Source of the DNA: Hermatobates lingyangjiaoensis
Lineage: Eukaryota; Arthropoda; Insecta; Hemiptera; Hermatobatidae
Direction of reading: 5' to 3'
Length of the DNA: 64,000 nucleotides
NCBI GenBank assembly: GCA_026182355.1
Contig: JAPFBL010000378.1
Location: 479,534-543,533, forward strand
The notes beneath the pieces are model-generated. The model did not search any database. It was not told the DNA's origin and saw only the letters and a list, made by a program, of their open reading frames with translations. Below, one piece after another: positions 518 through 61,875 of this stretch (position 1 is the stretch's first letter; each line of letters begins with the position of its first letter). The position numbers and the translations under genes are program-made.

Positions 518-560
518 GACTAAGACCTTTCAACCGTAACAAGCGGTCTTCGTCAGAATC
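518..560 (-). ncRNA. Hammerhead-like motif (family 1)
   Basis: Minus strand: GATT|CTGACGA, a spacer base, a stem II (GACCG with CGGTT), GAAA, then the helix III word. In this copy helix III reads AGGTCT rather than the palindromic AGATCT of other copies, so it looks decayed. It lies in the 3' UTR of the PLE fragment at 717-1105. Confidence 0.5.
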
Positions 561-716
561 CAAAACCCACTGAAACACTAGATGCAGAAAACATCTGGTG
601 AGTGGTTGAGAAGAGTGGTATTTTAAAAGGGTGAAAGCACAGGAAAGGACTAATGTCCAGAAAGGGATGTTTGGGGAAACAAAGGAGTACAATAAGAAAG
701 AGTAAAAAACTATCCG

Positions 717-1105
717 CTAACTGTCAACCCTCTTTGAAGAGGCTATTGCCCTCGTGACGAAAGTATCAAGTTTGAAGAGACCGTTACTAATGTTTATAAT
801 ATATGATCTATTAAATTTAATTAGAGACGATTCAGTAATATTTCTTAACAACATTGATTTTTCATAGGTAATAAATTTAGCTCCTGTCCAATCAATATGA
901 TGATTTTCATTTTTTATATGCAAGAATAAGGCACTACTTTTTTCCTGTCTACTTACGTTGTATTGGTGTTGTTTTACCATACACGTGTCTTTAATGATTT
1001 ACCAGTTTGACCAATATAAATTTTATGTCAATTTTTGCACGGAATTTTATAAATACCACCACCGGACTCCAATTCGCTGGGAGAGTTTTTAAATAAATCA
1101 TATTT
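717..1105 (-). pseudogene. PLE GIY-YIG nuclease C-terminal fragment
   Basis: On the minus strand this reads GGIYKIPCKN, a stop, KIYIGQTGKSLKTRV, then a frame slip and KQHQYNVSRQEKSSALFLHI and a C-terminal ESSLIKFN block. The GIY and YIG strands, the Arg of KTRV and the late Glu are all recognisable. It is broken by a TGA and a one-base shift. Its 3' UTR (518-640) is the 'gatttcacat' foldback family, tying that family to a GIY-YIG PLE. A near-identical piece lies at 61510-61800. Confidence 0.8.
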
Positions 1106-1476
1106 ATTTATAGAATTCCTAATAAAATTGAATTCATTAGTGCCGACAATCAAATTGACAGTAGCCAACTCACAGACAAATAGTTATTTATTTTTTTGTT
1201 AGCAAACTGTATGGGCTGCGTGGTTAGTTTTTAGTTTTTGACAGCCAACCAGAAGTCCTTTTTTCTCCTGATGACAACGAAGTTAAAATATTAAAGTGAG
1301 TTATGTTTCTATGTGTTCTTTTCTTCTAATCGTTTAATATATATTATATATATATATATATATAGTTTTCTCTTTCCTGTGTGAACTCTATATATATATA
1401 TTGTTTTATGTTTAATTGATATTTCATTTGCAAATTGGTGTCCATTTAATTTTTTATTTTTTTATTTTTTTTTTAG

Positions 1477-1675
1477 TAGTAATTATTCAGATAAGAAGAA
1501 GAAGAATAAAATATTTTTGGGCAAAGGAGAAGATCAATACCAGATTGATAGTGGCCAGAAGAATTTAGCTGAAGTTTATTGTAGCGAATGTAACTTGTTT
1601 TATACCCATGGTTGCCCTGAAGATGAAATTATCCATAAGAAACATCATTCTTCAAATCCTTTATTTACTTATATC
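1477..1675 (+). CDS. ESCO1/ESCO2-like: ESCO-type acetyltransferase, zinc-finger exon
   Basis: This exon codes for the C2H2 finger that precedes the acetyltransferase domain in Eco1/ESCO proteins, which acetylate the cohesin subunit SMC3 to establish sister-chromatid cohesion. Seen here are a Lys-rich stretch, the QYQIDSGQK motif, a Cys-X2-Cys pair (CSEC), the family-typical PEDE, and then the HKKHH histidines. It begins after a T-rich acceptor ending TTTTAG at 1476 and ends with TATATC before a GTAAGT donor. The last codon is complete (phase 0), so it joins the GWKNERVV exon directly. The reading frame continues past the donor for a few codons, but those belong to the intron. Confidence 0.88.
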
Positions 1676-1879
1676 GTAAGTAAGAAGTTAAAGATTTATT
1701 AACCATCATATATGTAATGCTAGAGAGCAGCACGTATATAAATGTAGTATCAACGTCCAAACAACAGTAAGAACTCAGAAAAAAAAAACTAAGATTTTCA
1801 AGCGTATTATTATTATTTGAGGGTGACTATAGCACTGCGTCTTAAAAAAACTATTGTACTTCCCCTCTTCTGTACTAAA

Positions 1880-2160
1880 GTACCCCAGCAGTTTGGTTCA
1901 ACGCCTTCAAGAAGCTCAGCACTTTTGCTGGTTCCAGCTGTAAAGTTTTTCTATGGTTTTGTTGAGTGTCCCGAAGCACCTACCTCTGTGCACCAATGTG
2001 TCCTTACAGTCAGTCAGCAGGTGCAATGGTGTTTCTTCCTCTTCTTTGCAGGATCTGCATAAACCAACATTGATAATTCCAATTCAGGCTCCCTTCGTTT
2101 CGGGAGAAAGTAACTTCCTTTCTCCTTTTTTGGGTTCTCAGGTTGGCTTCCACTAGTTAG
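1880..2160 (-). pseudogene. LINE-like retrotransposon C-terminal fragment
   Basis: The minus-strand frame contains GLCRSCKEEEETPLHLLTDC followed by RGRCFGTL. This Cys-X2-Cys...His-X4-Cys finger in an acidic context is typical of the C-terminal end of LINE reverse transcriptases. The frame stops shortly after. No recognisable reverse transcriptase core remains upstream (2160-2400), so this is a small relic in ESCO intron 2. Confidence 0.5.
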
Positions 2161-2399
2161 CGCTTTTGGACCTCTGTGCTTCCGGAGGATGGTCTCCGGA
2201 CTTCCTTCTCCTTAGTATCATAGTGGAGAAAATCCCTGAAGCTGTTACGGGTGGTATTTTGTCTGCTCCGGCAGAGCACCGCATACCAGAGTTTTCTTTT
2301 TTCTTTTTTAAATTCTTTTTGAAACATGCTCCACACAAGGTATTACGTGTTGTACTATTTTTTACAATAATATATATATTTTGCATACCAGAGTAAGGC

Positions 2400-2699
2400 T
2401 ATTTACTCAAGGGGGTCGCCTGGAACCCTTGAGGCTCCGTACGAAATACAGTAACCCCTGTATCATCCATCCTTCCGTACGGATCGCATACCATCTTAGA
2501 TTGGGACTGGAATAAGAGAAGAGGATTTGGGAAGTTGAAAGGGTTGTGAAACGAAGGTTGTCAGGCCCAGCCCCTGGCCACCATCTCCTCCTCCTCTTTC
2601 ATTTGTCCCTGCATATAGCTGAATAACGGTAATTTCACGAAGGCCTAAAGTCGGAGTTGAGTGCTAGAGGCAATTAGAGACGCATAATCACTCCATTAC
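2400..2699. other. Intronic DNA with no recognised feature
   Basis: This GC-richer stretch has no long open frame, no splice-flanked exon consistent with ESCO, and no terminal repeats that I can see. Confidence 0.4.
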
Positions 2700-4950: not shown

Positions 4951-5001
4951 TAATTAAAGTTACAGCTAGAGAACACAAGAAAAAGGACGAACACTCACGA
5001 A

Positions 5002-5037
5002 TCTCGATAATTTCGGCGTCTTGCCGTCTTCAGGAGA
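5002..5037 (-). ncRNA. Hammerhead-like motif (family 7)
   Basis: Minus strand: CTCTC|CTGAAGA, spacer C, stem II GGC/GCC, GAAA, then ATTATC and GAGA. Helix I pairs TCTC with GAGA. Helix III is imperfect in this family. An almost identical copy lies at 16941-16976. Confidence 0.5.
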
Positions 5038-5102
5038 GTAGAAAGAAAGAAAATAAAAGGAGAAAGAATGAAGGAACGGAGACGTAAATGCGTCCACTGG
5101 CC

Positions 5103-6240: not shown

Positions 6241-6518
6241 TATATAAACTAGAATTTAAAAAAGAACACATAGAAAGGAAACCACTGAACTCACTACTAT
6301 ATTTCGATGTCCTCGTCTTCAGGAAAAGAAGTGAATCGCTCCAAAGGCTGATAACGACTGACTTGGCGTTCGAACTGAAGCACTCAAACAGTGTAGCCAA
6401 CTTTCGGAGGAAAGGTAGACAGGGAAGATAAAGAGATAAAAGCCAAATAAAAATTAAAAAATGAAAACATTTAACTAAAATAAAATTAAAAGCTGATAAG
6501 AACTTAAAAAAAAAAAAA

Positions 6519-7260
6519 TCAACGATTGAGGTTAAGCCCAGGAGCCGATCTACCGCCCAGAAGACTAATAAGTGCTTCTTCTGAAGCTCTCAGAGTAACT
6601 TTCGAATTAGTCTGATCAATCTGCCTCAGGACCTGTACACGGAAACAGTCATTAAAACTGAGTCCGTGAGAACTGGCATGAGTAGCAACGGGAAGGTCAC
6701 TGCGTTTGCCAACGGATGACCTGTGATTATTCATACGCAGGCTTAGCTTGGTGGAAGCCAAACCCACATAAAAAGAATCACACTGGGTGCAATCCAAACG
6801 GTAAACGCAGTTACCAGAGGTACAGGAGGTCTTGTGAGAGATAGGGTAGGTGCGTTTACTATGGACAGAGGTAAAGGAAGGAACAGGATTGATGATAGGA
6901 CAAGTAAGACATCCACGACGTCCACATTGAACCATACCACCAGCAGTTTTTGGAGGCTTAGGAGAAGGATGTGAGAGAAGATAGATTGAAGATTAGCAGG
7001 TTTGCGATAGGAAATGGAAGGTGGCTCACTAAAGACTGAAGAAGTACAGGAGGAAGAAGAAAGTATAGGAAAAACTCCCTGACAACTGCACCCAGCCTAT
7101 GAGCACCAGGAAAATAAGTGGTGATGAGGAAATTCGCAGTCACTGCGATCCCTCCTAGGACCTGAATTATGATGAACGTCTGCAGGGACTATACGGTTGT
7201 TAATGAAATTAGAAGGATATCCTCGGTCAGAAAATTTCTGTTACAAACTTTCGTACTGCT
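6519..7260 (-). pseudogene. PLE fragment: Cys-rich linker and GIY-YIG nuclease
   Basis: The minus-strand frame at 6935-6519 reads CGRRGCLTCPIIN, then CTSGNCVYRLDCTQCDSFYV and GLASTKLSLRMNNH, ending SAPGLNLNR and stop. This is the zinc-binding linker (CxxxxCxxC plus paired Cys) followed by the VYRL...FYVG nuclease core. Upstream to 7260 the reverse transcriptase end is recognisable only in pieces, with frameshifts. Its 3' UTR leads to a family-10 hammerhead-like terminus (6290-6330) and a short (TA)n at 6238. Related to the copies at 14794 and 15983. Confidence 0.8.
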
Positions 7261-7549
7261 TATCTAAATTTCTGATTTATCTTCTCCTAATTCTAAAATT
7301 GAATTGAAGACTAGATTGCCCGAAAATTTGAGTTTGTATGTGTGTTTCTTTATTCTGTGTATGTTACTCTTCTTGAATTTTGAACTCGTGTATGTATATA
7401 TATATATGACTGGGATATTCTAACAGCCGCATACTTGGGCTCATATATACCTACAAAATACTCGATTTCTATTGCTCATATCTAAATTAATCATATATCT
7501 GTCCCCGGACAACTCATAGAGACCAATATATATATTATATCATTCACTT

Positions 7550-7593
7550 CTTCTCCTGAGGACGACCGCCATTACGGTCGAAATATTGAAAAG
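7550..7593 (+). ncRNA. Hammerhead-like motif (family 9)
   Basis: CTTCTC|CTGAGGA, spacer C, stem II GACCG/CGGTC, GAAA with ATAT then T, and GAAAAG. Helix I pairs five of six positions (CTTCTC with GAAAAG). GTGAGT follows immediately, and a terminal GTCC...GGACCGT box lies at 7648-7666 before (TA)n. Confidence 0.6.
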
Positions 7594-7724
7594 TGAGTCT
7601 TTGTTGTGTTTCAGTTTATGTGTCACTGCTTATTTTAATTGTTATTTGTCCTGCCGGACCGTTTTTCGTTTATTGGTGTTATATATATATATAAATATTC
7701 AAATATCCAAATATCGGACCACAT

Positions 7725-8614: not shown

Positions 8615-8940
8615 ACACTATTTTTCTTTCTTATCGAGGTTTGGTCTAGCTTCAGTAATACAACAACTTTAAACCGACGTTTCGTCTATATTTGTAGACA
8701 TCTTCAGGGCTACATCAATACAGAGTTTTGTTACTATAACATGAAACCAAGGTAATTATGGTATGTATATTAATTAAATTATGTAATATAATTATGTTTC
8801 ATGATATAGAAATTAAACTGTATTGATGTATTCCTGAAGATGACTACAAATATAGACGAAACGTCGGCTTAAAGGTGTTGCATTATTGAAGCTAGACCAA
8901 ACCTCGATAAGAAAGAAAAATAGTGATATATATATTTACT
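8615..8940. repeat. Family-12 PLE-terminus foldback, copy 2
   Basis: Same architecture as 7725-8045. The left-arm motif (8674-8709, minus) reads GCC|CTGAAGA, stem II GTCTA/TAGAC, GAAACGTC, GG. Both copies are followed by the same family-11 arm, so the two blocks look like a larger segmental duplication. Confidence 0.7.
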
Positions 8941-9575: not shown

Positions 9576-9830
9576 GAAAAAAGACAACAAATAGAAGAAG
9601 CGAGAAAACTTACTGGGTCGATATTTCGAACTGAAGTTCGTCGTCAGGGAGAAGAAGGGAGAATGACTCATTCTCTGCCAGCGCGAGTGGACGCACGTGC
9701 CTCTTCCTCTTCCCTTCTTCTCCCTGACGACGAACTTCAGTTCGAAATATCGACCCAGTAAGTTTTCTCGCTTCTTCTATTTGTTGTCTTTTTTCACTTA
9801 TATATCCGTCCTTTTTGGACCGTTTTAATA
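9572..9830. repeat. Family-4 PLE-terminus foldback between (TA)n tracts
   Basis: Near-perfect arms (outer 'aaaaaagacaacaaatagaag') flank a centre at about 9680. Each arm has the core CTGACGA, spacer C, stem II GAAC/GTTC, GAAATATC. The right arm continues to GTAAGT (9757) and the box GTCC...GGACCGTTTT (9808-9826), then (TA)n. (TA)n also abuts the left end. Confidence 0.75.
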
Positions 9831-9909: not shown

Positions 9910-10177
9910 TTCGAGATTAACAAAGAGCAAACCACAAAGTAGGGAAACACACTTACAGACTCAAATTTTCGGGTAATCCGTCTTCAGGAGAAAAGAGAAT
10001 GGGAGACCAAGCACGTTGTAGACGCAACGGCCAGTAACCAACCCGGCCCCTCCTATTCTCTTTTCTCCTGAAGACGGATTACCCGAAAATTTGAGTCTGT
10101 AAGTGTATTTCCCTACTTTGTGGTTTGCTGTTTGTTAATCTCGAACTCGTATTGTGTCCAGTTTGGATCGTATTTCG
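9905..10177. repeat. Family-2 PLE-terminus foldback between (TA)n tracts
   Basis: Arms (outer 'gttcgagattaacaaagagc') contain the hammerhead-like core at 9960-9990 (minus) and 10065-10095 (plus): CTC|CTGAAGA, stem, GAAAATTT, GAG. GTAAGT follows, and the box GTCCAGTTTGGATCGT lies at 10156. Other copies: 20092-20240, 29675-29962 and a partial copy at 45040-45180. Confidence 0.75.
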
Positions 10178-10405: not shown

Positions 10406-10613
10406 ATTTCACATAAACACGTGAAACAACAATCAATGATCAAACCACAATAAGAAATGGGAAAACAAGACTAAGATCTTTCAACCGTAACAAGCGGTCT
10501 TCGTCAGAGTCAAAAACCCAACTGCCCATAAGTTGGGTTTTTGACTCTGACGAAGACCGCTTGTTACGGTTGAAAGATCTTAGTCTTGTTTTCCCATTTC
10601 TTATTGTGGTTTG

Positions 10614-10653: not shown

Positions 10654-10671
10654 TGTATTTATAAAGCGTAT

Positions 10672-11220: not shown

Positions 11221-11357
11221 AGGGCCATAAGTTTTTTGTTGACCCGCACTCACCCCTACTCCACCCTCACCACCAACTTTCACTTCGACAGAATAGCAGT
11301 GTTCAAACGCCAAAGTAGTTAGTAATATGTATATTTAGTTAATATAAGTAGTTTGAG

Positions 11358-11392
11358 AACCTGATGATGACCCATGGGGCCGAAAGCTTGTT
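11358..11392 (+). ncRNA. Hammerhead-like motif downstream of PLE fragment
   Basis: AAC|CTGATGA, spacer T, stem II built from GACCC/GGGCC-type pairing, GAAAGCTT then GTT. Helix I is AAC/GTT and helix III is the palindrome AGCT followed by T. It sits in the 3' UTR about 140 bases after the stop of the GIY-YIG frame. Confidence 0.6.
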
Positions 11393-11591
11393 ATGTTAGT
11401 TTAATCTAGTGTAGTGATTTATTAAGTATAGTTATCCCCAGTGAAGTGTTTATTTAGTGTTTCAGCCTTCTGAATGTCTTATGCTAGTTTGCTTTGACAA
11501 TTATCACCTGCTCAAAAGAAAATTGTAAGAAAAATAGAAGCTATAAGTAGGAAAATCCTGAATGCAGAATCGTGAATATATATCAATTGCA

Positions 11592-11634: not shown

Positions 11635-12290
11635 CTTTAAATTACACAAAGCACGACACAGAAAAGAGAATAAAAAGAACACTTACAGAATTCAATATTT
11701 CGAACTGTTGTTCGTCATCAGGAGAGTAGACTAGAAGAGAGGACGAAGTGAGAGAGATCTCCCCACGTCGAAGAACGGAGCGCGAATGAAGCAATAAAGA
11801 GTCAACCGATGAGAGCAGCACTAGCATAAAAAAGGATCTAGGTACTAAACGTCGGAGAACGGAAAAGGCAAAAACAATAGATAAAATTATAAAATAAAAT
11901 TATAAATTAAAGATTGTAAAAAAGGAAATAATAAAAAAAATATATTAAAAAAAATTATATGAAATATAATATATATTTTTTTAAATATATTTTTTTATTA
12001 TTATTTCCTTTTTTACAATCTTTAATTTATAATTTTATTTTATAATTTTATCTATTGTTTTTGCTTTCTCCGTTCTCCGACGTTTAGTGCCTAGCTCCTT
12101 TTTTACGCTAGTGCTGCTCTCATCGGTTGACTCTTTATTGCTTCATTCGCGCTCCTCCTAGTCTACTCTCCTGATGACGAACAACAGTTCGAAATATTGA
12201 ATTCTGTAAGTGTTCTTTTTATTCTCTTTTCTGTGTCGTGCTTTGTGTAATTTAAAGTTTTATAGTCCTTGTGGACCGTTTCTTATTTTT
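11630..12290. repeat. Family-5 PLE-terminus foldback, long arms
   Basis: Inverted arms of about 320 bases meet near 11970. Outer ends are 'actttaaattacacaaagca' and its complement. Cores lie at 11692-11724 (minus) and 12168-12200 (plus): CTC|CTGATGA, spacer C, GAAC/GTTC, GAAATATTGA. GTAAGT follows at 12206 and the box GTCCTTGTGGACCGT at 12265. Other copies: 14165-14330, 46060-46095 (end only) and 58325-58490. Confidence 0.8.
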
Positions 12291-12909: not shown

Positions 12910-13220
12910 GTATGTACTATTTACTTCTTAATGCATTAAATATATATATATATAAACCAATTAAAAAAGATAGCACACAGATAGACACAGGAATATCTCA
13001 CTTCTATATTTCGACCATCGTCGATTGTTTTCCCATTCTTATTGTGGTTTAATCATTGATTGTTGTTTCACGTGTTTATGTGAAATCTTTTTATATATAT
13101 ATATATATATATATATACTTTAACACATAGAAAAGAACACAGAAAGACACTTCAGAACTCACTTCGATATTTCGACATCCGTCGTCATCGGGAAGAAGTG
13201 CGAAGTATATATATATATAT

Positions 13221-13524: not shown

Positions 13525-13735
13525 TTCTGAGGTAAAATGGATAAACCAACAAAAGTCTCCACACAAATGAAGTTTTATTCAACTCGTTTCGAACACTTTG
13601 TGTTCATCATCAGGAAGACACCAAGGATGTGGTACTGACGTGTTTCGAACACAAAGTGTTCGAAACGCGTTGAATACAACTTCATTTGTGTGGAGACTTT
13701 TGTTGGTTTATCCATTTTATCTCAGAAAGAGTAAA
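13525..13735. repeat. Family-14 element with inverted hammerhead-like cores
   Basis: The left core (13578-13617, minus) is TTC|CTGATGA, spacer T, GAACAC/GTGTTC, GAAACGAGTT, GAA. The right arm has only the stem plus GAAACGCGTTGAA. The outer segment, 'gtgtggagactttt...accacacaat...gattgcac', is the same sequence that is tandemly amplified at 59041-60005. Confidence 0.7.
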
Positions 13736-13749
13736 TACCACACAATTAC

Positions 13750-13995
13750 GGATTGCACAACTAATGATCCACAATATGAAATGGGAAAAAAGACTAAGAT
13801 CTTTCAACAGTAACAAGCGGTCTTCGTCAGAGTCAAAAACCCAACTCTCAGTGACCCCTCAAAAACTCAGTTGGGTTTTTGACCGCCATTACGGTCGGAA
13901 TATGGAAAAGTGAGTTTTTGTTATGTTTCTGTCTATGTGTCAGAGTTTATTTTAAGAGTAATCTGTTCTGCCGGACCATTCCCGTTTATCATGAT
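13750..13995. repeat. Chimeric foldback: family-1 arm fused to family-9 arm
   Basis: The left arm is family 1. The right arm begins as family 1 ('gttgggtttttga') but switches within the shared GACCGC word to family 9 ('ccgccattacggtcgg', then GTGAGT and a mutated terminal box). This implies a template switch or recombination at a short homology inside stem II. Confidence 0.7.
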
Positions 13996-15577: not shown

Positions 15578-15624
15578 GTGAATTTGTAACTCTCCATTCC
15601 GAGATCCCTCTCCATACGAATTCA

Positions 15625-16411
15625 CCGGATTTGTAACAGACTACAAGATAAACACCTACATATCAATAGCCTAAAAAGTAAATTTGTAGAGCGAGGTTAC
15701 CCTCTCCCCTTCCTAACAAGAAGACTGGTTCCTGCCACAACCCCACACAATCCTACATCAACCTCCTCTTCCTCTCCCTCTGGGTCTCCCTACCTTATAA
15801 CAACCTACTTCCCAGGTATCCACAGACTGGGTACCATCATTAAAGAACTTTTCCCGATCATATCCTCTTCCCCAGCCACCTCCAAAACCTTTCCTAATCC
15901 GCCACGCCTATCCTACAGACGTCCTCCCAACCTTGGCAATTTTCTTTCGCACAGGAAGCTAACCTCCACGAGGGCAAACAGTTTGCCCTCTGGAGCGCAA
16001 CTGTGCGGACGTCGAGGTTGCCTCACGTGTCCCATTATAAATCCCCAACCACACTTCACAGCTCCCCCCCATAACACCCTCTATCCTGTTGCAACTGACT
16101 GCTCGTGTACCTCCAAAAACTGTGTGTACCGTTTGGAGTGTACCAAGTGTGATTCGTTCTACGTAGGCCAAGCATCCACCAAGCTTAGTCTCCGTATGAA
16201 CAATCACAGAGCTTCAGTCAATAGCCGCTCCCATCTTCCCATTGCCATACATGCCAATAGCCACGGTCTCCCTTTTAATGAGTGCTACAGGTTACAGATT
16301 CTGCGACAAATACCCCCTGACAGCAAAGATCTCACACTACGAGCCTCCGAAGAAGCCCATATTTGGCTATTAAGTGCGCGCAGTGCACCTGGCCTCAATC
16401 TAAAGCGATAA
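15625..16411 (+). pseudogene. PLE linker and GIY-YIG nuclease, right arm
   Basis: An uninterrupted frame from about 15983 to 16411 gives CGRRGCLTCPIINPQPHF, CSCTSKNCVYRLECTKCDSF, YVGQASTKLSLRMNNH and a C-terminal SAPGLNLKR-stop. The earlier part (15625-15982) matches the end of the reverse transcriptase in another frame. Both zinc-finger Cys sets and the nuclease core residues are intact, so the nuclease domain itself looks functional, but the RT is missing. Confidence 0.8.
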
Positions 16412-16740
16412 TGTCTAAAAGTTCCTTGCCTTTTCACACTTTTTTTTTTTTTTTATTAATTTATTTCATTTGTTATTATTATTTGTATTCTTAGTTTTAT
16501 TTTATTTTACCATAGCTTAGTCAGTACTTTTGTTTATGTATCAATTTCCCTTATTTTTTCAATTTTTTCTTTTTTATATATTTATTGTTTTCATATTCCA
16601 TTAATTTAATGTAATTATAAATTATAAATTAATTATAAATTGATTCCTGTCTACCTTATTTTCTGTGAACGGGCGCGCATGCGGCAACACTGTTGGTCTC
16701 CAACCGTCTCTGATCCAGTGCGCTTGGTTTCCCTCTTTTA

Positions 16741-16776
16741 TCTCTCCTGAAGACGGTTCAAACCGAAAATTAGAGA
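16741..16776 (+). ncRNA. Hammerhead-like motif (family 6)
   Basis: TCTC|CTGAAGA, spacer C, stem II GGTT/AACC, GAAAATTA then GAGA. Helix I TCTC/GAGA is perfect and helix III is the palindrome AATT followed by A. Identical at 19991-20026 (plus) and 19870-19905 (minus); mutated at 58235-58268 (CTGGAGA core). Confidence 0.65.
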
Positions 16777-17051
16777 CTGTAAGTGTGTTCTTCTGATTTC
16801 TCTATGTTTCTTTGTTTATATTGAACTATATTTGTCCGTTTTGGATCGTATTTCCAACGAAAAAAAGCGTATATATATATTTATATATATAATTAAAGTT
16901 ACAACTAGAGAACACAAGAAAAAGGACGAACACTCACGAATCTCGATAATTTCGGCGTCTTGCCGTCTTCAGGAGAGTAGAAAGAAAGAAAATAAAAGGA
17001 GAAAGAATGAAGGAACGGAGACGTAAATGCGTCCACTGGCCGATGTAAACT

Positions 17052-26681: not shown

Positions 26682-26717
26682 TTTACGTTGAACTGTCATT
26701 CTTGTACTTGTTCTAAA

Positions 26718-29185: not shown

Positions 29186-29400
29186 TATATATATGATGTT
29201 ATTTTTTGAGGGTTGAGGTCCAATGATTTTAAACTAGTCCTTTTGCCGACGTTTCGACATATATTTATGTCATCTTCAGTGCTTGGAAATCTGTTTATGT
29301 TGCAGCTTACCTATTTACTACTGTTACATGATGGCAAAAGCATTAGTTTAAAATCATTGGACCTCAACCCTCAAAAAATTACATCATATAAATATTGGGT
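29186..29400. repeat. Foldback element with one hammerhead-like core
   Basis: Inverted ends 'ttttttgagggttgaggtcc' and its complement. The minus-strand core at 29245-29280 has CTGAAGA, T, GACATA/TATGTC and GAAACGTC, but an A-G mismatch at the first helix I pair. It lies 50 bases past the ESCO stop codon and may be part of the 3' UTR. Confidence 0.6.
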
Positions 29401-30275: not shown

Positions 30276-30455
30276 TCTATATATAAATATATAACGGGAC
30301 ACATAGACTGAAACAAAACAAAGACTCACTTTTCAATATTTCGACCGTAATGGCGGTCGAAATATTGAAAAGTGAGTCTTTGTTATGTTTCAGTCTATGT
30401 GTCACAGTTTATTTTAAGTGTTATCTGTCCTGCCGGACCGTTTTTCGTTTATCAT

Positions 30456-33251: not shown

Positions 33252-33829
33252 GTTTTCTTGACCACAATTTACTAATAAACACTTTTTCTTCTTCTTGGAG
33301 TTTGGTCAGGGTTAATATACGGAATCAATCACCTTTTCGACAACGTTTCGTCTTTATTTTAAGACATCCTCAGGGCTATAAACTAACACAATGGACATTT
33401 GTCATATCTACTTTACAATCATTATAACAAAGACTAGGTATTAGAAGCTAGCCTTGAGTAAGTAAGTTTTTTGAATTTGTTATGATGATTATCAAGTAGA
33501 TATGACAAATGTTCATTGTTTTTTGTTAGTTTATAGCCCTGAGGATGTCTTACAATAAGGACGAAACGTTGGCCTAAAGGTAATTCCGTATATTAACCCT
33601 GACCAAACTCCAAGAAGAAGAAAGTGTTTATATATATATATTAGATACTTGTATAATCAGATCTCATGACAATATTTAGAGTATATAGCTGCATATATAT
33701 GAATACCTAAGATTTATATTTTTAAATAAACTTAAATTATTATCTAATAGTATTCGAAGAACTGTACAGGAAATTTAAAGCAATTAACTGTATTATCATC
33801 TCTTAATTCATTTTATCATTCTCTTAGTT

Positions 33830-36476: not shown

Positions 36477-36531
<55 letters not shown>

Positions 36532-38245: not shown

Positions 38246-38452
38246 TGAACAATAAGAAAATTAATTAAAATAAAAATATAAAAATATAAATAGAATAAGA
38301 AACAAGTGTTATATATAATTCCTAACTATAAACAATATATAATAAATATAAACAAATAGATACAAATTAAATTAATGCAATATCAAAAAATAAACAATAT
38401 TAAATTATTAACAAAACAAGAATACATGAGAAAGTAATAAGTCAAATAAAAA

Positions 38453-40048
38453 TTATGTTCTATTATTAGAATCCACAATCTGGTCAGAGTTCATGTTCAA
38501 CGTTGCAAGTACATTTTGAAGGTCACCCACAGGACCAATTTGCCTAACTATACCTTCAATTAAAATTTCATCCAATCTAAAAAGCCCATGACTTATATTT
38601 ATTAGTTTATCAAAATTATACTTAATTAGGGCACTTTCTACTAAGTTCCTTTCCACATCAGATGAGAGAAATATCAATTCTTTGGAATCTTCCCATTTTA
38701 TTGAATGATTTTTTGAATTAATATGTTGGAACAAGGCACTTGATTCTTCTTGCCGCCTAATAGTGTATTTATGTTGCTTCACTCTAGTAAGCAAACTTTT
38801 TCCCGTTTGTCCAACATATGAAAAATCACAATCTCTACAAGGAATCCTATAAACACAACCTTCCTTTTCTTTTCTTTCACAATTATTTACAAGTCTGTTT
38901 AATAATTTCCCACCACTACTGAAAACAACTGAAATATCCATTTTTTTCAAAAATACCGGGATGTCTCTTAGAGTTTGATTAAAGGGAACAACCAGAAGGT
39001 TTCTATTTGTAAAGGGTTCTTTCTCATTTCTTGTTCTTAAGGATTCTTTAGTTTCTTTCAAAACTTTGTTTATTAGGGATCTTGGGTATCTTAATGATGA
39101 GGCAATTTGATAGATGTTTTCAATTTCATCATTCAGGAATTCTTCACTACACAATTTTAACGCTCTTAAAAACATATTTCTGAAAACACCTTTTTTGACA
39201 TTTGATGGATGAGCGGAGAAAAAATGCACATAAGAAGGAACATGGGTAGGTTTTCTATAAATACTATATCTTAGATTATGCCCAAAACGATGTAAATTTA
39301 AATCAAGAAAAGGTAACTTATTATTGCTTTCAAGTTCTAAAGTGAATTCAATTGATGGAACGCACTTATTAAGAGTATTCAAAAAATCTGCAACACATTC
39401 ATTGTTCGGCCAAACACACAAAACATCATCCACGTATCGAAACCATCTAGCATTGCTTGGCAAAATCCTAGGAAGAAATTTCATTTCAAAACATTCCATA
39501 AAAATATTGCTTAAAACTGGGGAAAGACAATTTCCCATGGCTAAACCGAACTTTTGCCTATAAAATTTATCCCTAAATGAGAAACAACAATCACAAACAC
39601 AAAGACGAATTAATTCAATAAGGACAGGCACCGAAATAGGCATGCTAAAGTTTCTTGTATCTAATTCTGTTTTTAAGTAATTCAGCGCATCTTCAACAGG
39701 AACATTTGTAAAGAGAGATTTCACATCGAAGCTCATCAAAGTACAGTTGTGAAAAGAGAGTGAGTTCAATTTTGAGACAAGGTCCGAACTATTCTTTATA
39801 TGGCTCTGGGAAATAGTACCAACCAAAGGCGACAAAATGCGTACCAACCATTTAGATAATTTGTAACCCACAGATCCAACCGAGCTAACAATAGGTCTAA
39901 CCGGGTTACCATCTTTATGTGTTTTTATTAACCCATACATATAAGGCAAGGAGGGAGATCTAGTAGTGAAACTGGCGATCAACTCCTTATTATTCTTAAG
40001 AATACTCTTTAATTTTCTATTAAATCCTAATTTTAATTTTCCAATCAT
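38453..40048 (-). CDS. Penelope-like reverse transcriptase with GIY-YIG nuclease, 5'-truncated
   Basis: A 531-residue frame without interruption. Order: a thumb-up Lys-rich start, YMYGLIKTHKDGNPVRPIVS (RT motif 2 region), FDVKSLFTNVPVEDAL (motif A with the Asp), GLAMGNCLSPVLSNIFMECF (motif B), RYVDDVLCVW (motif C, YVDD, the catalytic aspartates), LPFLDLNLHR (motif D/E), a linker with NRNLLVVPFNQ, then GCVYRIPCRDCDFSYVGQTG, the GIY-YIG nuclease with R of LLTRV and E of NLVESALIKY. The N-terminal part and zinc-binding start of full PLEs are missing (truncated at 40048, near the palindrome centre), so it is probably not independently active despite intact catalytic motifs. Confidence 0.92.
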   Translation of the reverse strand: MIGKLKLGFNRKLKSILKNNKELIASFTTRSPSLPYMYGLIKTHKDGNPVRPIVSSVGSVGYKLSKWLVRILSPLVGTISQSHIKNSSDLVSKLNSLSFHNCTLMSFDVKSLFTNVPVEDALNYLKTELDTRNFSMPISVPVLIELIRLCVCDCCFSFRDKFYRQKFGLAMGNCLSPVLSNIFMECFEMKFLPRILPSNARWFRYVDDVLCVWPNNECVADFLNTLNKCVPSIEFTLELESNNKLPFLDLNLHRFGHNLRYSIYRKPTHVPSYVHFFSAHPSNVKKGVFRNMFLRALKLCSEEFLNDEIENIYQIASSLRYPRSLINKVLKETKESLRTRNEKEPFTNRNLLVVPFNQTLRDIPVFLKKMDISVVFSSGGKLLNRLVNNCERKEKEGCVYRIPCRDCDFSYVGQTGKSLLTRVKQHKYTIRRQEESSALFQHINSKNHSIKWEDSKELIFLSSDVERNLVESALIKYNFDKLINISHGLFRLDEILIEGIVRQIGPVGDLQNVLATLNMNSDQIVDSNNRT

Positions 40049-40069
40049 ACTGAGAAGTGTAATAGTTCA

Positions 40070-41640
40070 TTTAATAGAAAATTAAAGAGTATTCTTAAGA
40101 ATAATAAGGAGTTGATCGCCAGTTTCACTACTAGATCTCCCTCCTTGCCTTATATGTATGGGTTAATAAAAACACATAAAGATGGTAACCCGGTTAGACC
40201 TATTGTTAGCTCGGTTGGATCTGTGGGTTACAAATTATCTAAATGGTTGGTACGCATTTTGTCGCCTTTGGTTGGTACTATTTCCCAGAGCCATATAAAG
40301 AATAGTTCGGACCTTGTCTCAAAATTGAACTCACTCTCTTTTCACAACTGTACTTTGATGAGCTTCGATGTGAAATCTCTCTTTACAAATGTTCCTGTTG
40401 AAGATGCGCTGAATTACTTAAAACAGAATTAGATACAAGAAACTTTAGCATGCCTATTTCGGTGCCTGTCCTTATTGAATTAATTCGTCTTTGTGTTTGT
40501 GATTGTTGTTTCTCATTTAGGGATAAATTTTATAGGCAAAAGTTCGGTTTAGCCATGGGAAATTGTCTTTCCCCAGTTTTAAGCAATATTTTTATGGAAT
40601 GTTTTGAAATGAAATTTCTTCCTAGGATTTTGCCAAGCAATGCTAGATGGTTTCGATACGTGGATGATGTTTTGTGTGTTTGGCCGAACAATGAATGTGT
40701 TGCAGATTTTTTGAATACTCTTAATAAGTGCGTTCCATCAATTGAATTCACTTTAGAACTTGAAAGCAATAATAAGTTACCTTTTCTTGAATTAAATTTA
40801 CATCGTTTTGGGCATAATCTAAGATATAGTATTTATAGAAAACCTACCCATGTTCCTTCTTATGTGCATTTTTTCTCCGCTCATCCATCAAATGTCAAAA
40901 AAGGTGTTTTCAGAAATATGTTTTTAAGAGCGTTAAAATTGTGTAGTGAAGAATTCCTGAATGATGAGATTGAAAACATCTATCAAATTGCCTCATCATT
41001 AAGATACCCAAGATCCCTAATAAACAAAGTTTTGAAAGAAACTAAAGAATCCTTAAGAACAAGAAATGAGAAAGAACCCTTTACAAATAGAAACCTTCTG
41101 GTTGTTCCCTTTAATCAAACTCTAAGAGACATCCCGGTATTTTTGAAAAAAATGGATATTTCAGTTGTTTTCAGTAGTGGTGGGAAATTATTAAACAGAC
41201 TTGTAAATAATTGTGAAAGAAAAGAAAAGGAAGGTTGTGTTTATAGGATTCCTTGTAGAGATTGTGATTTTTCATATGTTGGACAAACGGGAAAAAGTTT
41301 GCTTACTAGAGTGAAGCAACATAAATACACTATTAGGCGGCAAGAAGAATCAAGTGCCTTGTTCCAACATATTAATTCAAAAAATCATTCAATAAAATGG
41401 GAAGATTCCAAAGAATTGATATTTCTCTCATCTGATGTGGAAAGGAACTTAGTAGAAAGTGCCCTAATTAAGTATAATTTTGATAAACTAATAAATATAA
41501 GTCATGGGCTTTTTAGATTGGATGAAATTTTAATTGAAGGTATAGTTAGGCAAATTGGTCCTGTGGGTGACCTTCAAAATGTACTTGCAACGTTGAACAT
41601 GAACTCTGACCAGATTGTGGATTCTAATAATAGAACATAA
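40070..41640 (+). pseudogene. Penelope-like RT with GIY-YIG nuclease, one-base frameshift
   Basis: Inverted partner of 38453-40048 with nearly the same protein. One A is missing from an AAAAA run at about 40423, which breaks the frame at NYLK; the frame resumes at MPISVPVLIELI and runs to the stop at 41640. The only amino-acid difference I see elsewhere is PFLELNLH against PFLDLNLH in the other arm. RT motifs B and C (GLAMGNCLSPVL, RYVDDVLCVW) and GIY-YIG residues are intact. Confidence 0.9.
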
Positions 41641-41981
41641 TTTTTATTTGACTTATTACTTTCTCATGTATTCTTGTTTTGTTAATAATTTAATATTGTT
41701 TATTTTTTGATATTGCATTAATTTATTTTGTATCTATTTGTTTATATTTATTATATATTGTTTATAGTTAGGAATTATATATAACACTTGTTTCTTATTC
41801 TATTTATATTTTTATATTTTTATTTTAATTAATTTTCTTATTGTTCATTTTGCATTGTTTAATTGTATTGGGTATTTTTTGTTTTTCTCTTATTATGCCT
41901 TTTCGACTCTTGTTTTCCCAGCTGTTTAGTTACCTTCCTTGTACATACCTTTTATGTTACTTTCTAGTTCTTACCTTGTTT

Positions 41982-42124: not shown

Positions 42125-42604
42125 TCACGACCTACTCGTGAGTGGAACTAAAATAATTAGAAAAGAAAACAACTTCAATCGGCTGCAAATCGCAGAAGCA
42201 ATAATAATTAAACAGAATAAACCTACAATAAATATTCAAACGGGTAGTAGCGAGAGAGTACTTAAACTATACGCGCCTGATTGGATGAAAAAACCGTTAA
42301 CTGTCAGTACCCCCACCCCACCATCCACCCCACCTCAGTCAGTAGCCCTTGCGAATCAGGCCCAAGAGCAGCTACTTCAAACTTCTACTATATAATGTGT
42401 TTTAATACCAACTCCAAAGACTAATAATTTTCCTCTTTGTTTAATTAATCACCCTGAAGATGACTGGAAGCCAGTCGAAACATGTCGGTTATAACTTAAT
42501 TAACATTCTCCAACGTTTGGATGAAGGAAAGAAGAAGGTATTCAGAAACCTTGAAAAACTAGTGAAGAAAATGACATCAGCGAAATACGGTCAGCTGTTC
42601 AACG

Positions 42605-42784: not shown

Positions 42785-43088
42785 ATATATATATAAACTA
42801 GAATTTTTAAAAGGACACATAGAAAAGAAATCACTGAACTCACTACTATATTTTGATGTCCTCGTCTTCAGGAAAAGATGTGAATCGCTCCAAAGGCTGA
42901 TAACGACTGACTTGGCGTTCGAACTATATATATAAAATAAATTCAAAACGAAGGAAACACACATAAAGACACAGACATAACTCATATCGATATTTCGATG
43001 TCAGTTATGTCTGTGTCTTTATGTGTGTTTCCTTCGTTTTGAATTTATTTTATTTAAAAAAGTCCGCTGGACCGTTTCTTTTAATTGT

Positions 43089-45324: not shown

Positions 45325-45620
45325 ATAATAAAATAAAAAACGAAGGAAACACACAGAAAGACACAGACATAACTCACATCGATATTTCGACAATCGTCGT
45401 CATCAGGAGGTGCGAAGAGCGAAGAGTCCCGCAGGAAGACAGGGCGGTACTCAGCGGAGTACCGCCCTGTCTTCCTGCGGGACTCTTCGCTCTTCGCTCT
45501 TCGCACCTCCTGATGACGACGATTGTCGAAATATCGATGTGAGTTATGTCTGTGTCTTTCTGTGTGTTTCCTTCGTTTTTTTATTTTATTGTAAAAAAGT
45601 CCGCTGGACCGTTTCTTTTA
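45325..45620. repeat. Family-3 PLE-terminus foldback
   Basis: Near-perfect arms meeting at 45452-45458 ('actcagcggagt'). Cores at 45375-45412 (minus) and 45504-45541 (plus): CACCTC|CTGATGA, C, GAC/GTC, GAAATATC, GATGTG. Helix I pairs five of six positions. GTGAGT is at 45539 and box GTCCGCTGGACCGT at 45599. A trimmed third copy follows at 45680-45737. Confidence 0.8.
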
Positions 45621-46099: not shown

Positions 46100-46631
46100 A
46101 AAGATATATATATACATTATTGAAAATGACACCAAATTTAGCTGATACCTGTTTCTTAACAAGTTTCTCAATTTTTCTAAATAACACTCTCGTTATTTCG
46201 TCTACACAATAAAGTACATCTCCTATGGTCGACATGTTTCGAATGATCAACATTCATCATCAGGACGTGAATAAGATCTAATGTGAAAACCTGGTTTAAT
46301 ATATACACAGAGAAGGTAGAAGGGGGGGGGGGGTTTCCATAAAGTTTAAGATAGTTGGGCGTTAAATTTATGGAACCCCCCCCCCCCCCCTTCTACCTTC
46401 TCTGTGTATATATTAAACCAGGTTTTCACATTAGACCTTATTCACGTCCTGATGATGAATGTTGATCATTCGAAACATGTCGGCCATAGGAGATGTACTT
46501 TATTGTGTAGACGAAATAACGAGAGTGTTATTTAGAAAAATTGAGAAACTTGTTAAGAAACAGGTATCAGCTAAATTTGGTGTCATTTTCAATAATGTGT
46601 GTATCAAGGAAGGACTGCTACCAAAATTTAC

Positions 46632-52619: not shown

Positions 52620-53050
52620 AAGAAAAAACAAAACAATATGAAACGCGTTTTGAACACTTAGTGTTCTTTTTCAGGTTTTATCTACAGTCATGAAAGCCGG
52701 ATCTACAGGAGTGTCATACGGAGGAGGAATGAGTCAGTTAAGGGTACAGATGTCAACCTGAAGAAGAACACTAAGTGTTCGAAACTCGTTGTTAGTTTTC
52801 ATATTAAACTTTTTTTTTTTTTTTGAAATTTTTCGATAATGGCAAATACTACACTATAACAGATTGCACAAATAATGCAAAAATGAATATACAATAAGGA
52901 TTGTAGGGTAAAAAGCAAATGAAATAGTCTCCAAATATAAAAATTTAATCGTATAAACAACGCGTTTCGAACACTTAGTGTTCTTCTTCAGGGCATTAAC
53001 TAAAAAATACAATATCAGAAAAAAGATCAATAAATATATCATTTCCGTTC
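52620..53050. repeat. Diverged family-14 elements
   Basis: Three 'gaacacttagtgttc' stem II hairpins (about 52655, 52760 and 52976) with adjoining GAAACGCGTT or its complement. 52850-52960 contains 'accctacaatcc' and 'agtctccaaatat' words homologous to the satellite at 59041-60005. Confidence 0.6.
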
Positions 53051-57530: not shown

Positions 57531-57577
57531 TGTCATGACACGTTAAACGAATTAGCAACCAATATATACATTTACTT

Positions 57578-57616
57578 ACACAAGCTTTCGACTGTATATA
57601 AGTCATCTTCAGGTAT
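57578..57616 (-). ncRNA. Hammerhead-like motif upstream of PLE N-terminus
   Basis: ATAC|CTGAAGA, spacer T, GACT/AGTC with a bulge, GAAAGCTT, GTGT. Helix I has four pairs including one G-T, and helix III is AGCT followed by T. GTAAGT follows two bases later. Confidence 0.55.
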
Positions 57617-57961
57617 AATTTTGGTTAATCATTTAAAGAAACAAATTTAAATTCATATAAGGAACTTTTGAAACAAATTTTAGATAAACTAAAGATTATA
57701 AATAAAAATCAGCAGGTCTTTTATAACAAAGACTCACTTTTCAATATTTCGACCGTAATGGCGGTCGTCCTCAGGAGAAGAAGTGAATTGACTAAGGGAG
57801 GACAGTCAACTCATGTTGACTGCCAAACTTGTTTTATATATATAAATTTTGATAAAAGTATCGACCGTGGAATAGAAACAAAACTATAGTTTATCGGGAC
57901 TCGGTCAGTTCTTCAGGTTTGAAACCTGAAGAACTGACCGAGTCCCGATAAACTATAGTTT

Positions 57962-58784: not shown

Positions 58785-58854
58785 CTGCAAACAAGCAGTC
58801 TTACAGCAAGTCCTTTGTAGATAGTTGATTGTATTTAAACTATACTATCAATGT

Positions 58855-58995: not shown

Positions 58996-59040
58996 ACTCA
59001 GATGCTTATTTTGAAACTTTTTATTAAACTATTTTATATA

Positions 59041-60005
59041 AAGGTAAGTGTTCTGAGGGAGTGCAATCAGTTATTATGTGATATATAATCAATGTAGGGT
59101 AAAAAGTTAATAAAGAAGTCTCCACATATGTGTTGCAATCAGTTATTATGTGGTATTACTCTACGCATTGTACGGTAAAAAGTTAATAAAGAAGTTTCCA
59201 CATATGTGGTGAAATCAGTTATTATGTGATATATAATCAATGAAGGGTAAAAAGTTAATAAAGAAGTCTCCACATATGTGTTGCAATTTGTTATTATGTG
59301 GAATTACTCTACGCATTGTAATGTAAAAAGTTAATAAAGAAGTTTCCACATATGTGGTGAAATCAGTTATTATGTGATATATAATCAATGAAGGGTAAAA
59401 AGTTAATAAAGAAGTCTCCACATATGTGTTGCAATTTGTTATTATGTGGAATTACTCTACGCATTGTAATGTAAAAAGTTAATAAAGAAGTTTCCACATA
59501 TGTGGTGAAATCAGTTATTATGTGATATATAATCAATGAAGGGTAAAAAGTTAATAAAGAAGTCTCCACATATGTGTAGCAATCAGTTATTATTTGGTAT
59601 TACTCTACGCATTGTACGGTAAAAAGTTAATAAAGAAGTCTCCACATATGTGTTGCAATCATTTGTTATGTGGTATTACTCTTCGCATTGTAGAGTAAAA
59701 AGTTAATAAAGTAGTCTCCACATATGTGGTGCAATCAGTTATTATAGGGTGTTCACTCTTGTAGTGCAACAAACAAATAAAATAGTCTCCACATATGTGG
59801 TGCAATCAGTATTTATATGATACATACTCATTGTAGGGTAAAAAGCTAACAACATAGTCTCCACATATGTGTTGGTATCAGATATTATGTGGTATTTACT
59901 CTTTGTAGGGTAAAAAGCTATGAAAAGTAGCCCCGCATATGTGGCGCATTCAGTTATTATATGGTATTTACTCATTGAGACTAAAAAGTTAAGAAAAGTA
60001 GTCTC
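59041..60005 (-). repeat. Satellite: 74-base unit in 148-base higher-order dimers
   Basis: About 13 units containing 'aaaaagttaataaagaagt', 'ctccacatatgtg' and 'gcaatcagttattatgtg'. Between 59215 and 59570 two consecutive 148-base dimers are identical; units at the right end (59760-60005) are more diverged. Matches the end of the hammerhead-bearing family-14 element (13525-13735), so it was amplified from a PLE-like terminus. Confidence 0.85.
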
Positions 60006-60017
60006 GAGATATAAACG

Positions 60018-60735
60018 TTTTAGCACATGTGTGTGTTAGTGCGTGTGCATGTTGGAGTGTGTGCGTGTTTCAACGTTTGTGCGTAGTTTAGCGTGTGCGT
60101 GTTTGATCGCGTGTGTGTGTTTGTTCGTGTGCGTGTGCATGTTCGAGGTTGTGCGTGTGCGTGTTAGCACATTCGCATGTTTGTGGGTGTGGGTGTGTTT
60201 GTGCGTGGATTATTTTCGCGTGGGTGTTAGTGCGTGTGAGTATTGGAGAGTGAGCGTGGTTGTGCCTGTGCGTTTTTGTGCGTGTGCGTGTTAGCACATT
60301 TTATGTTTGAGCGTGTGCGTTATTGTTCTTGTGTATTTTGGAGCGAGTGCGTGTTTGTGCGCGTATGCGTGCTTGGAGAGTGATGTTCATTAGTGTGCGT
60401 GTTTGAGTGCCAGAGTGGAGGTGCGTGTTTGAGTTAGTGTATGTGCGTTTGCGTGTTCGTGCATGTGTGTGTTTGTGGCTGTGTGTGTTTCTGCGTGTGC
60501 ATATTTGCACGCGTGGTGTTTTTGCGTGTGCGAGTTTATGCGTGTGCAACATTGCGTGTGTGCATGTTTGTGCGTGTGCGTGCTCGAATTATACGTGTCG
60601 TGTTTGTTCGTGTGCATTTGGAGTGTGTGCGTGTGCGAGGGTGTTCGTCCTTGTGGATGTATGTTTGTGTGTTTGTGTTTGGGCTTATTTGTGCGTGTGC
60701 ATTATTGAGCGTGTGCGTGTTAGGATTTGCGTAAA
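60018..60735 (+). repeat. GT-rich degenerate repeat, about 720 bases
   Basis: Made almost wholly of 'gtgtgcgtgt' and 'gtttgtgcgtg' variants. Open frames on both strands here are a result of composition. The alternating purine-pyrimidine order could favour left-handed DNA. It lies in the NPF-tail gene intron. Confidence 0.85.
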
Positions 60736-60769
60736 CCACCATTATATATATATATATATATATATCAGT

Positions 60770-60990
60770 TCACAAACGAAGAAAAGCAACACACTTACAA
60801 GCTCAAATTTTCGGATGATCCGTCTTCAGGAGAAAAGAGAGAATGGGCGACCCGGTCGCCCATTCTCTCTTTTCTCCTGAAGACGGATCATCCGAAAATT
60901 TGAGCTTGTAAGTGTGTCTCTTTCTCTGTGTGTTGCTTTTCTTCGTTTGTGAACTGATTTGCGTCCAGTTTGGATCGTTTTTTCGAATTT
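60770..60990. repeat. PLE-terminus foldback (family 2-like)
   Basis: Arms meeting at 'gggcgacccggtcgccc' (60845-60861). Cores CTGAAGA, C, GGA/TCC, GAAAATTTGAG on both strands, GTAAGT, and box GTCCAGTTTGGATCGT at 60963 before (TA)n. Confidence 0.75.
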
Positions 60991-61034
60991 TAAGTGGATG
61001 TATATATATATATATATGAAATAGTGAAACTGAC

Positions 61035-61167
61035 TCATTGCCACTTCTGAGATGTTTGGAGAATTCTTGAAAACCCCTTTGACTAAGTACTTGGTAACAA
61101 GGGTGAAACAGTCATCGGCATGATCCAACTGACTATGGAAATCTTCAGCCATTCCTTTCGTGCGTCC
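61035..61167 (-). CDS. NPF-tail gene, upstream exon
   Basis: The minus-strand exon starts in phase 0 after TTTGCAG with GRTKGMAEDFHSQLDHADDC, then FTLVTKYLVKGVFKNSPNIS. This reads as a mostly helical domain that I do not recognise. The best donor is ATGA|GTCAGT, leaving one base that joins GA of the next exon as Arg. Reading past this donor runs straight into a (TA)n tract (61003-61018), which is why a longer open frame appears. Codon usage and conserved-looking hydrophobic spacing support a true exon. Confidence 0.6.
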
Positions 61168-61194
61168 CTGCAAAGATAACATTATATATATATG

Positions 61195-61250
61195 TTCGTA
61201 TATTTGGGGAGTAGGCCTTTATTGATACAAGTTCTATTAAAACCTATGCC
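61195..61250 (-). pseudogene. PLE N-terminal scrap at (TA)n
   Basis: The minus strand reads CINKGLLPKYTNI and ends at the (TA)n near 61186-61194. A very short copy of the recurrent N-terminal/(TA)n junction. Confidence 0.5.
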
Positions 61251-61261
61251 TATATATATAT

Positions 61262-61875
61262 CAATGATCAAACCACAATAAGAAATGGGAAAACAAGACT
61301 AAGATCTTTCAACCGTAACAAGCGGTCTTCGTCAGAGTCAAAAACCCAAGTGAACACTAGATGCAGAAAACATCTGGTGAGGAGTTGAGAACAGTGGGAG
61401 GGAAGAGTGGTATTTTAAAAGGGTGAAAGCACAGGAAAGGACTAATGTCCAGAAAGGGATGTTTGGGGAAACAAAGGAATACAGTAAAAAAAGTAAAAAA
61501 AACTATCCGCTAGCTGTCAACCCTCTTTGAAGAGGCTATTGCCCTCGTGACGAAAGTATCAAGTTTGGAGAGACCGTTACTAATGTTTATAATATTTGAT
61601 CTATTAAAGTTAATTAGAGACGATTCAATAATATTTCTTAATAACATTGATTTTTCATAGGTAATAAACTTAGCTCCTGTCCAATCAATATGATGATTTT
61701 CATTTTTTATATGCAAGAATAAGGCACTACTTTTTTCCTGTCTACTTACGTTGTATTGGTGTTGTTTTACACGTGTCTTTAATGATTTACAAATTTGACC
61801 AATATACTTGTTTTCCCATTTCTTATTGTTGTTTGATCATTGATTGTTATTTCACGTGTTTATGTGAAATCTTTA
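61262..61875 (-). mobile_element. PLE 3' piece with internal deletion (family 1)
   Basis: Left: family-1 3' UTR with core (61304-61346, minus). Middle: 61510-61716 in frame (HIKNENHHIDWTGAKFITYE, ESSLINFNRS), the GIY-YIG C-terminus, about 95% like 717-980. Right: the frame is cut at 'accaatata' (61803) and joined to the family-1 tail in the opposite orientation, forming a lopsided foldback. Confidence 0.75.

Follow-up and report, generated by a model that had tools for sequence, protein, structure and literature searches.

The stretch of DNA analysed here, referred to as the window, comprises 64,000 nucleotides from the hemipteran insect Hermatobates lingyangjiaoensis (GenBank assembly GCA_026182355.1, contig JAPFBL010000378.1, positions 479,534 to 543,533 of the forward strand). 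It consists of AT-rich, animal-like DNA with a GC content of 29-37% per 4 kb and is crowded with remnants of Penelope-like elements (PLEs), which form about twenty families of broken copies. Many of these families carry a motif that resembles the hammerhead ribozyme, with one additional base in its core and a short palindrome in place of a closed helix III. At the level of sequence, this one-extra-base fold, the palindromes and the PLE setting are established.

The core heptamer CTGANGA by itself occurs 87 times in the window, compared to 20.0 +/- 5.0 (maximum 37) in 100 shuffled versions. The strict motif, in which CTGANGA is followed by exactly one extra base, a stem II (minimum 3 bp) and GAAA, was found in 43 copies, while the same motif without the extra base was found once and with two extra bases not at all; dinucleotide shuffling (n = 100) yielded means of 0.20, 0.10 and 0.12, respectively, and at most four motifs in total. 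The sole copy without an extra base, at 7815, apparently reflects a deletion inside family F5. Two statements of the initial annotation, namely that hammerhead-like cores recur in PLE-terminus families and that nearly every copy has one extra base (43 of 44 strict matches), are thereby confirmed. For comparisons between families, 22 representatives were picked by hand from 52 script matches in 18 clusters; four clusters were split, 11361 and 9186 were added by hand, and 44336 and 56198, each a single-copy cluster without hammerhead appearance and without a palindrome, were dropped. The alignment and the covariance model derived from it, R1, use 21 representatives, excluding 9186. Since CTGANGA and GAA were search terms, the presence of C3 U4 G5 A6 N7 G8 A9 in 21/21 aligned representatives follows from the search. 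Independent of these search terms are the base at the cleavage site (H17), the palindrome, the helices and the closing T (U16.1), and the G12, A13 and A14 of the hammerhead as well as its A15.1-U16.1 pair are found in the representatives. The mapped hammerheads are as follows.

10539..10589, plus strand: F1 hammerhead, extra A, helix III AGATCT; cluster with the most copies (11)
16739..16780, plus strand: F2 hammerhead, extra C, helix III AATT, GTAAGT downstream
4998..5041, minus strand: F2b hammerhead, extra C, helix III ATTAT (self-complementary, central T.T)
6290..6330, minus strand: F3 hammerhead, extra C, helix III ATAT
7548..7595, plus strand: F4 hammerhead, extra C, helix III ATAT; among the top-scoring model matches
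8668..8715, minus strand: F5 hammerhead, extra T, helix III ACGT
9716..9759, plus strand: F6 hammerhead, extra C, helix III ATAT, weak helix I
10060..10100, plus strand: F7 hammerhead, extra C, helix III AATT
12163..12206, plus strand: F8 hammerhead, extra C, helix III ATAT
13573..13621, minus strand: F9 hammerhead, extra T, helix III ACGAGT; its partner arm at 13647 has ACGCGT
29240..29287, minus strand: F10 hammerhead, extra T, helix III ACGT; its partner arm begins at the cleavage site (29333)
33531..33578, plus strand: F11 hammerhead, extra T, helix III ACGT
42446..42494, plus strand: F12 hammerhead, extra T (A9-T-G reads ATG), helix III ACATGT
45502..45543, plus strand: F14 hammerhead, extra C, helix III ATAT
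46441..46489, plus strand: F15 hammerhead, extra T, helix III ACATGT
52951..52999, minus strand: F16 hammerhead, extra A, helix III ACGCGT
57574..57620, minus strand: F18 hammerhead, extra T, helix III AGCT
11353..11397, plus strand: hammerhead without family label, extra T, helix III AGCT; 3' of the open reading frame at 10654-11220

Two further arm families depart from this core. One, at 13158-13199 (minus strand) and 36564-36605 (plus strand), has the core CCGATGA (CCGATGC at 36564), followed by stem II, GAA, ATAT and GTGAGT, and represents either a U4C variant or a decayed form. The other, F22 (36179-36478 and 17888-18413), combines a stem and GAAACGT with the aberrant core CTATGAAAAAGG in the position of CTGANGA, and scores weakly with R1.

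The carriers of these motifs are recognized as PLEs by their coding capacity and by their termini. A 537-amino-acid open reading frame (ORF) has a Pfam RVT_1 match (E 7.3e-12) and a GIY-YIG match of 18.7 bits, below the cut-off of 22.6, i.e. the reverse transcriptase (RT) with C-terminal GIY-YIG domain expected of a PLE. Among the best 120 of its 937 relatives, many are full-length proteins of approximately 785 amino acids with RVT_1, some also with GIY-YIG; six of the 120 carry a species name, one each from Oratosquilla, Cherax and Procambarus and three from Penaeus, all of them crustaceans. GIY-YIG matches below the cut-off were obtained for three of the four PLE-like ORFs tried, and the PLE-like ORF at 10654-11220 gave no Pfam match at E <= 1.

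38453..40066, minus strand: PLE ORF, 537 amino acids, RVT_1 with a GIY-YIG match under the curated cut-off
40402..41640, plus strand: inverted counterpart (412 amino acids) covering most of the PLE ORF
38246..41847, plus strand: head-to-head palindrome of two PLE copies, 3.6 kb
15590..16411, plus strand: ORF 5' of the F2 hammerhead; its GIY-YIG match falls short of the cut-off
6519..6992, minus strand: ORF 5' of the F3 hammerhead and on its strand; GIY-YIG match again short of the cut-off

For the hammerhead families and the side families F20-F22, arms no longer than about 150 nt were mapped, leaving aside matches below 55 bits and the satellite at 59-60 kb, which resulted in 107 arms in 20 labelled families. 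Successive arms less than 700 bp apart lie head to head in 38 cases, tail to tail in 34 and in the same direction in 15, and 29 of the 31 head-to-head pairs within 120 bp unite arms of the same family. The outer end lies at most 70 nt from a (TA)n run of at least five units in 85/107 arms, compared to 13.7% of random positions. Inverted terminal repeats (pLTRs), an optional tail and an AT-rich target, as in PLEs, are thus all found. In families whose extra base is C (C-type), 13 arms were read: four end 49-58 nt past the cut and nine at 87-105 nt, and the motif GTCC-N(2-6)-GGAYCGTWT at +56 to +66 is present in 8/9 of the longer and 0/4 of the shorter arms. These long and short ends match the optional tail described for PLEs (PMC3846280), which another study explains by two RT start sites (PMC11167929). 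One well-delimited example is given below.

16773..16869, plus strand: F2 3' arm between the cleavage site and (TA)n, with GTAAGT at +6 and the tail GTCC..GGATCGTAT at +61

In the position of helix III, a palindrome of four or six bases stands immediately 3' of GAA in 37/43 strict motifs and in 19/22 representatives (19/24 if 44336 and 56198 are restored), whereas a palindrome follows any GAAA of the window in 183/1254 cases (15%), hammerhead sites included; the claim that the palindrome is almost always kept is therefore borne out. When the position is shifted, palindromes appear in 0-3 families, except at offsets -3, -2, +2 and +4 (6, 12, 9 and 6 families), peaks which we take to arise from the conserved letters themselves. 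The three misses are near-palindromes: 5027 has ATTAT, self-complementary but for the central T.T, and a single base separates 13607 and 52758 from ACGCGT. The next base, H17, is T in 10, C in 7, A in 2 and G in none of the 19 palindromic families, and T in 29, C in 10, A in 5 and G in none of 44 palindrome-bearing copies, so that the initial claim that G never occurs here holds at both levels. The covariation then proposed for the palindrome stands between families, whose letters differ and yet are self-complementary in 19/22. It does not extend to changes within a family, where AGGTCT, AGATAT and similar departures were seen and no compensatory change. With four to six self-complementary bases, closure as a hairpin is impossible, so that helix III could form only between two cores and the likely unit would be a dimer.

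The two other helices are supported to different degrees. In the 21-representative alignment, 91.8% of the stem II cells are paired, covariation amounts to 0.707 compared to 0.209 when shuffled, and both sides have changed in 32 cells compared to 9.2 in shuffles; moving the stem II partner by one base reduces pairing to 47% or 25%. A register without the extra base, with 41% of the cells paired, was rejected. These stem II figures lean to the extra-base register, as most representatives were picked by a script that required stem II and tried that register first; the even-handed test is the count of strict motifs (43/1/0) against shuffles, in which the registers are treated alike. The closing pair of stem II is GC in 18 representatives, GU in two and another combination in one. 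In the canonical hammerhead G10.1-C11.1 follows immediately after A9, while here one base intervenes. Stem II is nearly absent from the AGGCCT family (9186), which the initial annotation had included. Helix I has 83/132 positions paired, compared to 62.1 +/- 4.8 when the 3' strands are permuted among the 22 families, a value reached in 0/2000 permutations, in a test that ignores the relatedness of families and for which the helix III length of 5027 was set by hand. By duplex energy the excess is weaker (99/5000 permutations as low). The statistical check of covariation suggested at the outset is thus positive within the window for both helices; for helix I this holds across families, and contiguous pairing is almost nil at 9724, 29273, 32078, 6316 and 52985.

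Among the 22 families, the extra base (position 10) is C in 10, T in nine, A in three and G in none; over 49 copies it is C in 26, A in 13 and T in 10. Its near-universal presence in the core is unusual, while the position itself is known from a viroid: the (+) hammerhead of chrysanthemum chlorotic mottle viroid (CChMVd) likewise has one extra base, A10, between A9 and G10.1 (PMC3705267), a precedent for a feature that was unfamiliar to the initial annotation. CChMVd differs in that the base is A and the carrier a viroid, compared to C, T or A by family, a retrotransposon and a palindromic helix III in the window. In that study, C or G at position 10 is reported as highly detrimental and U as increasing the rate 3-4 fold (PMC3705267), from which C-type ribozymes should be slow on their own. 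Unless the core is remodelled by contacts with a protein or within the dimer, the ribozyme is probably slowed by the extra base. Nearest-neighbour folds of 20 representatives, whose energies leave out tertiary contacts, give a probability of pairing between the extra base and G12 of 0.10-0.99 in 17 C and T families (at least 0.45 in 12/17) and of 0.00 in the three A families. Across representatives the combination is U-G in nine, C-G in eight and other in four, and G never changes to match. An ordinary stem II pair between the two was rejected as the active fold, since the A families keep G12, which implies that G12 is held for the core and not for pairing with the extra base; it is retained as a possible inactive fold.

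In the families with extra T (T-type) the insertion creates an ATG, and CTGANGATG is present in all nine representatives. The F12 ATG opens a reading frame.

42460..42602, plus strand: open frame from the F12 ATG, by eye like the F15 arm in another frame; perhaps a PLE N-terminus

That the extra base serves generally as the U of an AUG was rejected, as only F12 of the nine T-type families stays open as a PLE-like N-terminus (by eye). The ORF of the Poseidon PLE of Anolis carolinensis (PAc) is said to start where stem II starts, 26 bp ahead of the cut (PMC11167929), and A9-U-G10.1 would be compatible with the AUG of PAc. This element resembles the copies described here in having a hammerhead near the ORF start, stems I and II, a tail and a protein that cleaves and extends both strands (PMC11167929); it differs in that many families are present in the window, with a core ATG only in the T-type and in frame only in F12.

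The hexamer GTRAGT, with a background of about one per 1350 bases per strand, is found in 9/10 C families, 8-13 nt past A15.1 and thus 3-7 nt past the cut, where it overlaps or shortly follows the 3' strand of helix I; it occurs in 1/9 T families and 0/3 A families. Together with the tail motif common to most of the longer C-type arms, this distribution makes the description of the families as unrelated an overstatement. Because introns are known in PLEs (PMC3846280), GTRAGT may be guessed to be a candidate 5' splice donor. A limited literature search found no splice site beside PLE hammerheads, and the splice-site text of PMC7761336 concerns other matters. One speculative extension, which we regard as rather unlikely, is that pairing of the extra C or U with G12 acts as a brake until a protein or a second RNA remodels the core, and that use of the C-type GTRAGT donor excludes self-cleavage, deciding between messenger and template. 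A brake released by protein would agree, by analogy, with the protein dependence of the PAc hammerhead.

Taken together, we consider the motifs likely to represent minimal type I hammerhead ribozymes of PLE pLTRs, dimeric via the palindromic helix III and with an extra base at position 10. From these features we infer dimer formation, cleavage, the start points of reverse transcription and any templating by cut RNA. A pair of element RNAs, perhaps within one RNP, or of tandem units on a single RNA would anneal by the 4-6 base palindrome into a shared helix III, whereupon each core would cut past its H base and a unit-length RNA would be released. Reverse transcription would then begin about 50-58 or 87-105 nt past the cut, at one or the other end of the tail, and priming on either side of a broken (TA)n microsatellite would give rise to head-to-head inverted copies. 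The PAc protein is predicted to be dimeric and cleaves and extends both strands (PMC11167929), which fits head-to-head insertions.

Several observations weigh against this interpretation. Helix I is very short in several families, and the Rfam hammerhead models, a check that the initial annotation had proposed, gave no match, either at gathering score across the entire window or at E <= 10 in the four stretches tried. C, which is detrimental at position 10 of CChMVd (PMC3705267), is the commonest extra base. A double hammerhead was not obtained as the minimum in the five two-strand folds tried. Same-strand copies exist and head-to-head neighbours are common, and the tandem pLTR-ORF-pLTR arrangement required for a dimer in cis is putative. 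Many arms extend well upstream of the cut site, which suggests that uncut RNA is often copied; several arms begin within a few bases of the cleavage site, a weak excess by hand tally on which no claim about template 5' ends is based. Finally, in PAc, hammerhead mutants had no effect on insertion in vitro and no reads start or end at the cut site (PMC11167929).

The last two points would suit a fold conserved as a signal to which the PLE RT-endonuclease binds or at which it initiates, with the core letters read by protein and not serving self-cleavage, and so would the report that the Anolis hammerhead is inactive without protein (PMC11167929). We nevertheless judge such a signal function unlikely, as the conserved letters follow hammerhead chemistry (C3-A9, G12-A14, A15.1/U16.1 and an H17 that is never G in 19 palindromic families) and protein recognition alone predicts no self-pairing palindrome with varying letters. 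Chance look-alikes from AT-rich, palindrome-rich sequence, for which the 15% background of palindromes after GAAA might speak, are practically negligible as an explanation; 43 motifs against a shuffle mean of 0.2 and the covariation of stem II and helix I between families strongly oppose them.

A different role for the palindrome and stem II, chiefly as microhomology in DNA or complementary DNA (cDNA) that joins two arms head to head, is improbable in view of the junctions themselves, for which 40 of 41 palindromes hand-picked from 57 found were read by eye. Helix III is the joining point of two F14 insertions and stem II that of one F4 insertion, and palindromes at inverted junctions of A. 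vaga Penelope elements have been read as self-priming (PMC3846280).

10218..10325, plus strand: F14-arm perfect palindrome, 108 bp, centred on the helix III palindrome (GATATC)
42929..43056, plus strand: another F14 head-to-head pair, with its junction in the helix III region
30298..30403, plus strand: F4 head-to-head pair, joined via the stem II hairpin
12974..13089, plus strand: chimeric head-to-head insertion, F14 arm (minus) beside F1 arm (plus)
13757..13989, plus strand: chimeric head-to-head insertion, F1 arm (minus) and F4 arm (plus)

Most of the junctions, however, lie elsewhere, at short shared words or often at upstream sites, and both chimeric pairs unite families with differing palindromes (AGATCT and ATAT). 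The chimeric pairs also contradict helix III pairing as the cause of head-to-head joining, since they imply that two RNAs can meet without it. The variety of junctions is compatible with twin priming followed by microhomology joining, or with hairpin foldback.

The preferred reading, dimeric self-cleaving hammerheads at PLE termini, is backed by enrichment, covariation, the slide control and element anatomy, and by analogy the hammerheads likely act as dimers. Newt satellite and avocado sunblotch viroid (ASBVd) hammerheads have an ordinary position 10. They share with the window copies a short helix III completed by dimerisation in double hammerheads (PMC6155905, PMC6466107) and differ in their carriers. 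As a kind, the arrangement is already published, with regard to hammerheads in PLEs, the missing helix III and cleavage as a dimer. Minimal type I hammerheads of PLEs may cleave as dimers and are reported without the tertiary contact between loop I and loop II (PMC7761336); those of PLEs and Terminons are likewise located in PLE terminal repeats, with an absent or minimal helix III and a palindrome that permits dimers (cited in PMC7761336 and PMC6466107). Double hammerheads need a palindromic stem III terminal loop, a statement cited for PLEs too (PMC6466107), and several putative repeat-type hammerheads have a palindromic stem or loop III (PMC3088659). The inserted base as a rule across PLE families, its bias against G and the link to GTRAGT were not found in the accessible literature, and the first of these features may already stand in the primary descriptions of PLE hammerheads.

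Model R1, the new covariance model suggested by the initial annotation, returned 63 matches in the window at E <= 0.013, among 85 at E <= 1, counts that include the 21 training sequences and come without a shuffled control; part of the matches fall in further families. No related locus was found among the viral contigs searched. Pattern scans of viral and genome contigs gave 8 matches that close a stem II of at least 4 bp among the 166 re-read matches listed (146 loci), and these scan matches mostly look like chance. Four loci in viral contigs (L021, L024, L026 and L027) are hammerhead-like without an extra base, and closure of helix III by a hairpin is possible by eye.

Apart from PLEs, the window contains exons of an ESCO1/2-type acetyltransferase at 1385-1699, 12698-12907 and 29016-29135 (all plus strand), which correspond to a zinc finger and to the acetyltransferase domain in two parts; many PLE insertions lie between these exons and are thus intronic. 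A U6 spliceosomal RNA match of 62.8 bits is located at 51524-51628 (plus strand). A tandem satellite at 59061-60012, with units of 72 and 148 bp, shares 38-45 nt with the stretch 3' of the F16 hammerhead, and further tandem arrays are present at 47207-48204 (332-bp unit) and 63156-63999 (158- or 314-bp unit). An imperfect palindrome of 2.3 kb spans 25537-27881, and no hammerhead arm was mapped inside it.

With some twenty families that share one fold and vary in the extra base, the palindrome and helix I, the locus represents a natural set of mutants in one place. The absence of Rfam matches in the stretches tried hints that the hammerhead models overlook this form, and the family set allows the dimer model, the influence of position 10 and a possible connection with splicing to be put to direct tests.

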